Positions 53,682 through 57,070 of a DNA stretch of 58,571 nucleotides are shown here, one piece after another (positions within the stretch are counted from its first letter, which is position 1; each line of letters starts with the position of its first letter). The DNA lies in NCBI GenBank assembly GCA_025966365.1, contig JAICWV010000004.1, positions 1-58,571 on the forward strand, read 5' to 3'. The DNA comes from Chloroflexota bacterium (GTDB lineage Bacteria > Chloroflexota > UBA5177). Below the pieces are notes generated by a model. The model worked only from the letters and a program-made list of their open reading frames with translations. It searched no databases and was not told the origin of the DNA. The position numbers and the translations under genes are program-made.

Positions 53682-54616
53682 CGCGTCGCTCCGGCGATCT
53701 CCGCTTTGTTGCGGACAACCGTCAGGTAGAAGGCGGTAGTCAGCACGGAGAGAACCAGGATGACGATGGAATAGGCAGCCGCGATGTTCGGGTTCTGGTA
53801 GCTGTGATACCAGTTGTACGCCTGGGCGCCCAGGACCGGCAGATTGCTCCCCACCAGCGCCAGGATGACGGCGAATACCTGGATGGCGAAGATGGTGCGG
53901 AGAATCAGGGCCACGCGAATGCTGGGCTTGAGCAGGGGCAGCGTGATGCGCCAGAGACGCTGCCAGAACGTGGCGCCAAAGACGTCTGCCGCCTCTCCGA
54001 ACTCCCTGGGTATACCCTGCAGCCCGCCGAGAAGGATAAGCATGACGAGCGATGTCGATCGCCAGATCTCGGCCACGACACACACGGCGAAGAGGGAGAA
54101 AGTGTTCTGATAGCTGAGGAACTGATAGCCGTATTGGGACAGGCCAAGATCGTGCAGGATCGAGTTGAAGTAGCCGTTCTGGGTGTAGATCGACAGCCAG
54201 ACGATCCCGGCGGCGAGATCGGATATCGCCAGCGGAATGGTCCAGACGTACAGGAAGAATTGCTGGCCTCGTAGCCCGGTGTTGATGATCAGTGCCATCG
54301 AAAATGCGAGGCAGAACTCCAGCGGAATAATGCTAACCATGAAGATGAGCGTGTTCTTGACCGACGGCCAGAACGTGTACTCATGGGTCATCTGATAGAA
54401 GTTGTAGCTGGTGAGGGTGTTGTTCGGGCCCTCGAAGGCGAGATGAATGGCCTGGATCGCGGGCCAGACGACGAACACGCTCAGGAAGAAGACCGACGGT
54501 GCCAGCAACAGGTACGGGGCGACCGCTTCGACCCGGGGACGTCGGCGAGAGGGAACCGAGGGGGAGGAGGTTACCTCCTCCCCCCAGGCTCCGGCTGTCT
54601 CTACCCGACTGGACAC
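53678..54616 (-). CDS. Sugar ABC transporter permease (MalF-like)
   Basis: 312 aa, six transmembrane helices starting near residue 33 (YLLLAPSVFFLSVFVVW). EAA loop: IPREFGEAADVFGATFWQRL. Start GTG 54616 overlaps the binding-protein gene by 16 nt. The first 30 codons carry an 11-bp perfect hairpin in mRNA (54560-54584), which is likely both a stability element and a brake on expression. Confidence 0.93.
   Translation of the reverse strand: MSSRVETAGAWGEEVTSSPSVPSRRRPRVEAVAPYLLLAPSVFFLSVFVVWPAIQAIHLAFEGPNNTLTSYNFYQMTHEYTFWPSVKNTLIFMVSIIPLEFCLAFSMALIINTGLRGQQFFLYVWTIPLAISDLAAGIVWLSIYTQNGYFNSILHDLGLSQYGYQFLSYQNTFSLFAVCVVAEIWRSTSLVMLILLGGLQGIPREFGEAADVFGATFWQRLWRITLPLLKPSIRVALILRTIFAIQVFAVILALVGSNLPVLGAQAYNWYHSYQNPNIAAAYSIVILVLSVLTTAFYLTVVRNKAEIAGATR
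54560..54584 (-). repeat. Strong hairpin at the binding-protein/permease junction
   Basis: GGGGGAGGAGG (54560-54570) and its exact complement (54574-54584) leave a 3-nt loop. It begins 17 nt after the binding-protein stop codon and lies inside codons about 11-19 of the permease gene. No U-tract, so it is not a normal terminator. Confidence 0.8.
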
Positions 54617-55911
54617 GGGCCCTTACTCGGCTTGTCCGGGTACCAGCATTTTGCTCCGGCTTGCTGAACCAGGCCCGCCATGATGGAGCCCTCGTCGTTG
54701 AGCACGGACTGGATCGGCTGATTCTGGATCAGTATTCGGTTCCAGGTGTCCAGGTACACCTTGTTGAAGGCGGCGTTCTGCGCGCCCAGGCCCACCGGCA
54801 CCAGCGCCGGAATGCTGCCCTTCGCATTCTGCTGCGCCTTGACCGCCAGCGACTCGGTCCAGGTCCCCGTGTCCAGGGTAGCGGGAATAGGAGCCCTGGT
54901 GGCCGGGAAAAAGGCGAGGCGTTTGAGGATGTTGATCTCCTGGGTGTTCTGGGTCAGGTAGTCGATCACTTTTTCAGCGGCGGCCTTATTTGCTGCTCCC
55001 TTGGGGATCGCGAGACCACCCAGGACGACCATGTAGCCCAAACCCCTTGGTCCTCGCGGCGCAGGCACCAGCACCATATCGTTGGCGTCCTGGCTGGCGG
55101 CGTTGATGAGGCGAGCCACGTGGTCCCAGGCGATCCAGACCTCGCCTGAGAGCAGCGGATCCTGCATGAAGGAGTAGCTGGTGGACTGCGGGTTGGTCAC
55201 CGCCCACAGCTTCTTCATCATCTGCCAGGCTTTGACGGCGCTCTTGGACTTGAAGGTCCGAACCACACCTTTGGTGTAGGAGGGGTACAGATATCCCTGC
55301 ATGAAGCGGTGAATCAGCCCGGCGACCGGGAAGCCGATCATGGCCCGGCCCGTCTTCTTCTTGATGTTCTGTCCCCAGGCCACCAACTGGTCGTAGGTGA
55401 GCTTATTGACCTTGGCGCCCTTGGGCAGGTAGGGCAGGGCTCTGCGATTGACCCCGAGGACGTAGGTGGCCGTGATCCAGGGGATGAAGTAGTGCTTGTT
55501 CTTGGACCCGAGCTTCGACAGGTTGATGAAGCTCTGCGGGAATCCCCGCTTCTTGAGCTTGTTCATCAGCGGGGTAAGGTCCTGGAGCATGCCGTCGGCG
55601 GCAAGCGGCTCGAAGTCGCTCTGCAGGCCGGCAAGCACGTTGAACTGGACCTTATTGGACTTGACCTGGGACTCCACCTGCGTGAAGTAGGTCGAACTGT
55701 CGGCCGCAGGTACAAAGCTGACCGAGGCCGGCGAGTTCGCGAGGATAACGTTCCTGAACGTGGTGGCCTCGTCCACGGGCGTGAACTGGGTTGAGTAGAT
55801 GGTCACTGCCGTATCGGCGCCGGCCGGAGTGGCGTCGCGCGGGATGGACGCCAACAGCAGAGCCACCACGCCGATCACGATAGCAACGCGGGAAAGCCAG
55901 AGCTTGGTCAC
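54601..55911 (-). CDS. Extracellular solute-binding protein, family 1
   Basis: 436 aa. Signal peptide MTKLWLSRVAIVIGVVALLLA, no lipobox, so it is probably secreted or remains surface bound by another means. The mature part is a type B/D binding fold (VTIYSTQFTPVDEATTFRNV, PLLSGEVWIAWDHVARLINA, GGLAIPKGAANKAAAEKVID). It should capture a sugar or oligosaccharide for the permeases. GTG 55911 lies 6 nt after AAGGAG; the ATG 55917 touches that site. First gene of the importer operon. Confidence 0.9.
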   Translation of the reverse strand: MTKLWLSRVAIVIGVVALLLASIPRDATPAGADTAVTIYSTQFTPVDEATTFRNVILANSPASVSFVPAADSSTYFTQVESQVKSNKVQFNVLAGLQSDFEPLAADGMLQDLTPLMNKLKKRGFPQSFINLSKLGSKNKHYFIPWITATYVLGVNRRALPYLPKGAKVNKLTYDQLVAWGQNIKKKTGRAMIGFPVAGLIHRFMQGYLYPSYTKGVVRTFKSKSAVKAWQMMKKLWAVTNPQSTSYSFMQDPLLSGEVWIAWDHVARLINAASQDANDMVLVPAPRGPRGLGYMVVLGGLAIPKGAANKAAAEKVIDYLTQNTQEINILKRLAFFPATRAPIPATLDTGTWTESLAVKAQQNAKGSIPALVPVGLGAQNAAFNKVYLDTWNRILIQNQPIQSVLNDEGSIMAGLVQQAGAKCWYPDKPSKGPCPVG

Positions 55912-56623
55912 TGACATCTCCTTCCAGGGATTGAAAGTTGCCACGATCCCCTGGCCAGCGTCTGCCCAGTGACGCTGGTTGCGGGCCACTCTCTACGGGA
56001 TGGCTGCACGCCGACCTGGGTTTCCCAGCGCGTCCTCTGCTTCTCCTCCTTGGGCCGGTATCGACCCAGATCCTCGCGTCCATTCCCTGAAGATCAATGC
56101 ACATCGTACAGCGAGTACCGCGACCGGTCAAGCGGGTGCGGGCCTCGTTTTTGCAGTAGGGGCGATGTACACTCGCTGGCCTGAGATGTAGGGGCGAGGT
56201 GCAATCGCCCGCTGTGCCACAGCACAGCTTCCGGTGCCCGCCACGCAGGGATGACGTTCTCGGGAACTGGCGGGCCCTTCCGGGTTCGCCCCATTGCGAC
56301 TTTCGGGGTGCCCACCGCAGGGGGTCGAACCCCGAAAGCCACGGCGAGTGGAATCGGGGGATCGGCCCCGACCACACCTGTGGCGCGAAGGCATACTCTG
56401 GAGATGCATGCACCGAAGCCGCTCTGTGGAGCGGCGGGCGATTGGAAATCGCCCCTACATTTCAGCGGAGTGCACATCGCCCGTACATCTCAGCCGATCG
56501 CAAATCGGCCCCTACATCTCAGCCGAGTGCACATCGTCCCTACATCTCAGCCGAGTGCAAATCGCCCCTACAGTTCTACTGCAAAAACGTGAGTCACGCC
56601 CGGTCAAAGGTTTTACGTAGGTG
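55912..56623. other. Non-coding region with an inverted-arm repeat element
   Basis: This 712-nt stretch shows no convincing gene. Reading frames across it are made by repeats. Its main content is the element at 56146-56589. The first 230 nt, upstream of the binding-protein gene, show no clear promoter. Confidence 0.7.
56146..56589. repeat. Inverted-arm element built from 27-29-bp units (MITE-like)
   Basis: Outer ends are exact complements over 14 bp: CGTTTTTGCAGTAG (56146-56159) and CTACTGCAAAAACG (56576-56589). The right arm has four head-to-tail units (56461-56488, 56489-56517, 56518-56545, 56546-56573) of consensus CTCAGCCGAGTGCAAATCGCC plus CCTACAT, preceded by a related 27-nt unit (56434-56460). 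The left arm has two inverted units; 56186-56212 matches the complement of 56434-56460 at 24 of 27 bases. The 221-bp centre has no gene; it contains a 10-bp inverted repeat, CTTTCGGGGT (56300-56309) with ACCCCGAAAG (56329-56338). Confidence 0.78.
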
Positions 56624-56983
56624 TCAATCCGGATCGTGTGCTATAGGTCTGACTTCCACCAACCCTCCGGCCGGCCAGCTCCGGGCCACCTCGACCGCTT
56701 CGTCAAGCCCCGGTACCTCGATGACGGCGTAGCTGCCGATGGCCTCCTTCGATTCCACGAACGGCCCGTCATTCACCACCGGCACCCGACTCTTGCCCGC
56801 TGGTCCCAGCACGACCGTCTTGGCGGTCGATTGTCCCTGCAGGCGTCTGCCCTCAACGATGCGGCCGGCCCGGGCGTGCTCGCCGAACCAGCGGCCAATA
56901 CGGGCGACCGCATCCTCCCGGTCGGATTCCGGCATCGACATCCACGCGTGCTCGTCGGCGGCAAACAAGAGAAGGTACTTCAT
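56624..56983 (-). CDS. YCII-related domain protein
   Basis: 119 aa. Begins MKYLLLFAADEHAWMSM, continues with a ferredoxin-like alpha/beta fold and DGPFVESKEAIGSYAVIEV, the YCII/DGPF signature containing the conserved Asp-Gly. Such proteins often accompany ECF sigma factors or act as small enzymes, but no general function is known. ATG 56983 has AGGAG 8 nt upstream; a GTG at 56992 has none. Confidence 0.88.
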   Translation of the reverse strand: MKYLLLFAADEHAWMSMPESDREDAVARIGRWFGEHARAGRIVEGRRLQGQSTAKTVVLGPAGKSRVPVVNDGPFVESKEAIGSYAVIEVPGLDEAVEVARSWPAGGLVEVRPIAHDPD

Positions 56984-57070
56984 GCGACTCACTCCTTTAT
57001 CGTCGGCCGTGACACCCAGAGATGACAGCCTCTACTTCAAGGACGAACAAGAGTCCCCGTCACGCGACAA

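Follow-up and report, generated by a model that had tools for sequence, protein, structure and literature searches.

Several families of Mutator-like transposases are described as giving target duplications of 8-9 bp, and several members of the ISKra4 group (p-MULT 4, Mutator-like DDE enzymes) as inserting 13-17 bp upstream of sigma-A promoters (PMC3942029). BrickBuilt of Porphyromonas gingivalis, a MITE (a DNA transposon without genes), has a tandem array of 23-nt units inside it; it is reported from 19 places in one strain, and its ends resemble those of an insertion sequence in the genome (PMC4596501). GTAG REP families and the BIMEs built from them are described with a GTAG tag, an 8-bp stem and a 3-nt loop, and their head-head dimers have outward GTAG ends (PMC3733652). 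Promoter targeting by ISKra4 elements, MITEs with internal tandem arrays and GTAG repeats are each already known from these three sources. No ISKra4-type MITE and no MITE with GTAG arrays was found in literature titles and the openings of abstracts, among which few subscription journals were covered.

The element described here lies within a window of 58,571 nucleotides (the whole stretch of DNA that was analysed), from a Chloroflexota bacterium (GCA_025966365.1, contig JAICWV010000004.1). Its family has in common with ISKra4-group insertion sequences the 9-bp duplications and the insertion about 16 bp upstream of a -35 box (as given for the group in PMC3942029), as well as inverted ends of the GGGTG type, which were seen here in insertion sequences of Ktedonospora formicarum and of a phylum relative (G018). 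It differs from them in having no transposase gene, in measuring 171-524 bp rather than about 1.6-1.7 kb, and in carrying arrays of units inside. Like BrickBuilt, it is a MITE with a tandem array; BrickBuilt is described with IS5-type ends, a single array with a non-repetitive leader and tail, and duplications of variable length (PMC4596501), whereas in the host MITE a core is flanked by two arrays of hairpin units facing opposite ways, and the duplications are 9 bp long. The innermost units share with GTAG REPs the tag, the 8-bp stem and the 3-nt loop, and the GTAG ends face outward as in the head-head dimers. Judged from sequence, the element is very probably a MITE that depends for its movement on a DDE transposase of the ISKra4 group acting in trans.

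The initial annotation had placed a 444-bp element at 56146-56589. The element is real, and both of those ends were set 12 bp too far in; comparison of ends across copies gave a true span of 56134-56601 (468 bp, ends GGGTGYRRCYCACGTTTTTGCAG). The outer 14-bp inverted match that had been reported, 56146-56159 with 56576-56589, is exact and forms the inner part of longer inverted ends. Units of 27-29 bp had been proposed for both arms, in opposite orientation; the orientation was borne out, and the spacing proved to be 32 bp on the left and 28-29 bp on the right. The parts of the element and its surroundings are as follows.

54601-55989, minus strand: flanking gene for an extracellular solute-binding protein (ORF bounds; an ATG start is likely at about 55918, by eye)
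56103-56131, minus strand: promoter-like site TTGACC-17-TACGAT, external to the left end and directed at the solute-binding-protein gene (promoter scoring)
56125-56133, no strand: putative 9-bp target duplication, left copy, cggtcaagc, decayed (7/9 only after a one-base shift)
56134-56601, no strand: whole element, array-type MITE (end comparison across copies; homologous two-ended array copies L022, L023 and L030)
56134-56155, plus strand: left terminal inverted repeat, degenerate, GGGTGCGGGCCTCGTTTTTGCA, 18/22 to the closest family end (end comparison)
56155-56208, plus strand: left arm (Q side), with two units TGTAGGGGCGA... at 32-bp spacing and GTAG facing outward (unit mapping)
56209-56433, no strand: core, edges GCTGTGCCACAGCACAGC (Q) and GCCGCTCTGTGGAGCGGC (P), approximate bounds (matched by other copies)
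56300-56338, no strand: extra hairpin ctttcgggg...ccccgaaag, marking a long-core variant (by eye also in L011, L015 and L024)
56434-56572, minus strand: right arm (P side), with five inversely oriented units at 28-29-bp spacing and GTAG facing outward, approximate bounds (unit mapping)
56580-56601, minus strand: right terminal inverted repeat, GGGCGTGACTCACGTTTTTGCA, 21/22 to a family end (end comparison)
56601-56609, no strand: putative target duplication, right copy, cggtcaaag, whose first base coincides with the final base of the right end (flank comparison)
56624-56992, minus strand: flanking YCII-related gene, whose stop is 22 bp from the element (ORF and annotation)

At 468 bp the element is short and without coding capacity, as had been noted: six ORFs scanned across the region gave no Pfam match at E 0.01. 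It folds far better than shuffled sequences (z = -8.7 as DNA and -8.1 as RNA), as any opposed arrays would be bound to do. When its flanks were compared with four other genomes of the host's taxonomic family, one (G004) matched over the YCII gene only, with the solute-binding-protein gene absent within roughly 1.5 kb on either side of that match, and another (G002) matched over 37 bp only; no empty site was seen among them.

In its own genome, the element had at least 137 matches (the best 40 of 92 first-look candidates were scored), so that the single copy which the initial annotation would have taken for a local satellite was not what was found; the best other copy there had E = 1.3e-130, far beyond chance. 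These matches were grouped into 40 loci, in which copies split over two contigs were counted twice. By our own count, 23 of these 40 loci extend to 45 bp or less from the end of a contig, and the family probably contributes to the fragmentation of the host assembly. The genome also holds small relatives of 171 bp (L050, L052 and L057) and of 227-268 bp (L051, L053, L055 and L080). All have the family ends, and those of 227-268 bp are also similar to parts of the array elements. These small relatives, which have a single hairpin or just one unit in each arm, are probably a simpler form.

Outside the host, the whole element was not found in 40 relatives (at most the best 16 candidates per genome were scored) or in plasmid and phage collections. 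The inner unit pattern, at up to 2 mismatches, occurred 83 times in the own genome and in 0 of 300 other genomes of the phylum; the end pattern, at the same tolerance, occurred in 0 of 200. No end pattern was found in a viral contig collection, and a genome contig collection gave nine stretches. In seven of the nine just one end is present, and these look like chance hits. The pattern scan also gave a stretch of a Chloroflexia MAG (L074) in which two ends lie 90 bp apart, and a stretch of K. formicarum (L079) that led to an insertion sequence. The single Rfam match was below threshold (21.2 against a gathering score of 42.5) and was taken as chance.

Terminal inverted repeats are common to the copies. 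The first end type, GGGTGTGACCCACGTTTTTGCAG, was found at 20 places in the own genome within 3 mismatches and the second, GGGTGCAGCCCAAGATGTTGCAGCGGGGAGGTTGG, at 10, with none for either in a reversed-pattern control. A looser pattern for both types gave 65 places and 19 in its reversed control, so weak ends need care and some of the ends used in the duplication and promoter tests may be chance.

Fourteen end pairs were identified in the fetched loci. In exact register, six of these two-ended copies had flanks that matched at 8-9 of 9 bases (L023, L050, L051, L055, L057 and L080); shifts of up to 2 bases brought this to 9/14 by adding L022, L052 and L053, compared with 0 of 182 mismatched pairs. 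A target-site duplication, which had been suggested as a check on the element, was thus present at the level of the family, while the window copy reached 7/9 with a one-base shift. The exact 9-bp duplication of L023, an array-type copy, indicates that the arrays travel with the element. No duplication was seen at four end pairs (L030, L054, L081 and L084), some of which may be false pairs.

Three loci had unusual arrangements. At L054 (2701-2982) two adjoining elements are separated by one base only, which has a type-B end on one side and a type-A end on the other. Array copies at L025 (3130-3175) and L040 (160-206) have about 34 bp in common outside the last unit and then diverge, perhaps marking a third end type. 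At L030 (2745-3208, also L088) the outside flanks are near-inverted copies of each other, by eye with 3 differences in about 52 bp, and each contains a promoter-like site.

The sequence TTGACA was first noticed beside several ends, and a simple -35/-10 score was then applied with a threshold (7.5) that was set after the flanks had been seen. Only ends with at least 64 bp of flank were included, 43 in all. A -35 box was found 13-17 bp outside 11 of the 43 ends, against 43 of 22,800 random stretches; in this range, a threshold of 8 left 8 ends and 10 random stretches, and a threshold of 9 left 5 and 1. At 14-20 bp, 13 of the 43 ends (on 12 elements) passed, against 75 of 22,800 random stretches, and shuffled flanks gave a mean of 0.40 and a maximum of 3. 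Other 7-bp distance ranges had 2, 1, 0, 0 and 0 passing ends. Four of the 13 passing ends belong to array-type copies (L015, L019, L030 and L041). The remaining 30 ends had no promoter-like site at 14-20 bp; as each element has two ends, about half of the ends are expected to lack one. Insertion 13-17 bp upstream of promoters, as in several ISKra4-group members, was therefore seen in the family and not in the window copy.

The window copy is the poorest fit to its family, with a degenerate left end, a shifted duplication and the wrong promoter distance. Its flanks at the corrected ends match at 4/9 bases in exact register and at 7/9 with a one-base register shift. Since 3 of 182 mismatched flank pairs did equally well when shifted in this way, the duplication is weak evidence for this copy taken alone. 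The promoter-like -35 box starts 2 bp from its left end, compared with the usual 15-17 bp.

Units were mapped in 54 regions using a loose cut-off, which gave 293 hits. Each arm consists of 1-8 head-to-tail units that by and large have GTAG outward around the core. At the second unit, steps are mostly of 28 bp in the P arm, beside GCCGCTCC...GAGCGGC, and mostly of 31-32 bp in the Q arm, beside GCTGTGCC...CACAGC. The inner unit reads GTAG-GGGCGATT-TGC-AATCGCCC, a GTAG tag next to a short palindrome. Among innermost units, the tag was intact in 54/60 and the stem in 54/60; among outer units the figures were 53/139 and 60/139, which are possibly understated since unit boundaries came from a fuzzy match. 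Across 164 units, pairing in the stem showed no excess over permutation at five of six pairs, the sixth being a gap artefact, and the stem was accordingly not found to be kept by compensatory changes. In L032 the core is inverted relative to the arms, which would be the product expected of recombination between opposed arms, unless the locus is misassembled.

The form of these units raises the question of a second enzyme. The genome has a RAYT-like gene (REP-associated tyrosine transposase; L026 5317-5844, minus strand; NF047646 E = 1e-18, 67.6 bits against a cut-off of 80; Pfam Y1_Tnp), with a pair of GTAGGGGC hairpins beside it whose stems (such as GGGCAACC...GGTTGCCC) are unlike those of the MITE units. 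A role for a RAYT is possible, based on this gene and on the GTAG form of the unit. We consider it unlikely, though worth setting out, that two enzymes act on the element, such that an ISKra4-type transposase would move the whole unit upstream of promoters and the RAYT would copy or rearrange the GTAG hairpins in the arms. If so, hairpin arrays of changing length would be built upstream of promoters across the genome.

It is rather less probable that the RAYT alone spreads the GTAG hairpin units as a REP/BIME-type element, with the outer inverted repeats incidental. The tag-plus-hairpin form of the inner unit is that described for GTAG REPs (PMC3733652), the hairpin pair lies alongside the RAYT-like gene, and paired units occur at L045 and L047, where no family end was seen. 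With such a mode of spread, the 9-bp duplications and the fixed promoter distance of whole elements would not be expected; in addition, the hairpins near the gene differ in their stems, the unit stems lack covariation beyond the gap artefact at one pair, and the tag is gone from most outer units. The REP-type half of the initial annotation is borne out in part, by the GTAG-plus-hairpin form of the unit; no link between the unit and the RAYT-like gene was seen. A single inner hairpin unit was also found in an IMG/VR viral contig (L136 3889-3911, minus strand), within an ORF and with no MITE ends seen alongside. This occurrence, which would suit spread by a RAYT, suggests that the inner unit can occur on its own.

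Returning to the ISKra4-type MITE as the preferred reading, relatives of its presumed mover were found in other genomes and, as a remnant, in the host. In K. formicarum, GGGTGTGATTCACATTTTTGC was found at 6 places, and the five copies that were fetched, each flanked by an exact 9-bp duplication (5/5), represent an insertion sequence of 1641 bp. One of its ends is identical to a MITE end at 20/22 bases and the other at 18/22. A -35 box lies at 16 bp in all five copies, on the side of the transposase 3' end, with four above the promoter threshold and one (L103) at 7.0. The transposase matched the ISKra4 model NF033572 best (E = 4.8e-56), at 190.7 bits, which is below the NCBI curated cut-off of 205, and the ISLre2 model next best (E = 4.8e-18). 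At L099 (207-1821, minus strand) its frame is divided between two overlapping ORFs (139 aa and 415 aa), which may reflect a programmed frameshift. The relative G018 has an ISKra4-like insertion sequence of 1702 bp with GGGTG ends, a 9-bp duplication (TGTTGGCGG) on both sides and a -35 box also at 16 bp; its end is identical to the MITE end at only 13/22 bases. Four ISKra4-like loci of another genome (G016) gave no acceptable paired ends at up to 7 mismatches.

No intact transposase with MITE ends was found in the own genome, where the single match was a fragment. This remnant (L085 3876-4926) has a C-terminal match to NF033572 (E = 2e-9) and lies beside IS3-family sequence where contig C34 ends. 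Its terminal sequence, on the matching side, is identical to the MITE ends at 17/22 bases; among 152,104 22-mers tested, three were as good, and all three were family ends, two of them from the window element. The search for a transposase with the same ends, which the initial annotation had proposed, thus gave an insertion sequence with near-identical ends in K. formicarum (20/22) and only a remnant in the host (17/22), and the likely type of the mobilising enzyme could be named from the ends as ISKra4-like.

That the ends derive instead from a different DDE family whose duplications are 8-9 bp long (ISLre2, IS256 or a novel family), their ISKra4-type likeness being coincidental, is very improbable. 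Duplications of this length are not confined to one Mutator-like family, ISLre2-type elements are described as likewise inserting upstream of promoters (PMC3942029), and the weaker match of the K. formicarum transposase to ISLre2 would agree with such an origin. Counting against it are the 20/22 end bases identical to those of the K. formicarum insertion sequence, the equal duplication length and promoter distance, and the own genome's ISKra4 remnant, whose end is similar.

A local satellite or tandem array, expanded in place and dispersed by recombination rather than transposition, is scarcely credible, for although arm length varies from 1 to 8 units and neighbouring units of the P arm resemble each other slightly more than do units of equal rank in different elements (identity 0.742 vs 0.685), those of the Q arm do not (0.713 vs 0.716), and the dispersed copies show conserved ends, a fixed promoter distance and 9-bp duplications, the last of which largely contradict it.

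With these alternatives weighed, the claim that the element is a mobile MITE stands: the family is multicopy and gene-less, has terminal inverted repeats together with 8-9 bp duplications as in the ISKra4 group, and shows 9-bp duplications at family level. An ISKra4-type transposase would recognise the outer ends GGGTG...CACGTTTTTGCAG and move the element, which would insert with a 9-bp duplication, preferably about 15-17 bp upstream of a promoter -35 box, where it should do little harm. The enzyme that moved these copies would be of this type, and it may since have been lost from the host or have gone unassembled. The innermost pair of GTAG-tagged hairpins is the conserved part, and the outer units look like copies of that pair that may have accumulated head-to-tail within each arm through slippage or unequal recombination; with regard to such local growth, the identities of same-rank and different-rank units lie close together. 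Movement is known from its footprints only; the enzyme and the growth of the arrays are what we infer.

The family unites DDE-type MITEs and GTAG hairpin repeats, which are usually treated apart, and it presents a graded series of forms within one genome, from a single hairpin through one unit per arm to arrays. It appears to keep the promoter-upstream targeting of its parent group, and strongly folding repeats would thereby be placed directly before promoters of one genome.
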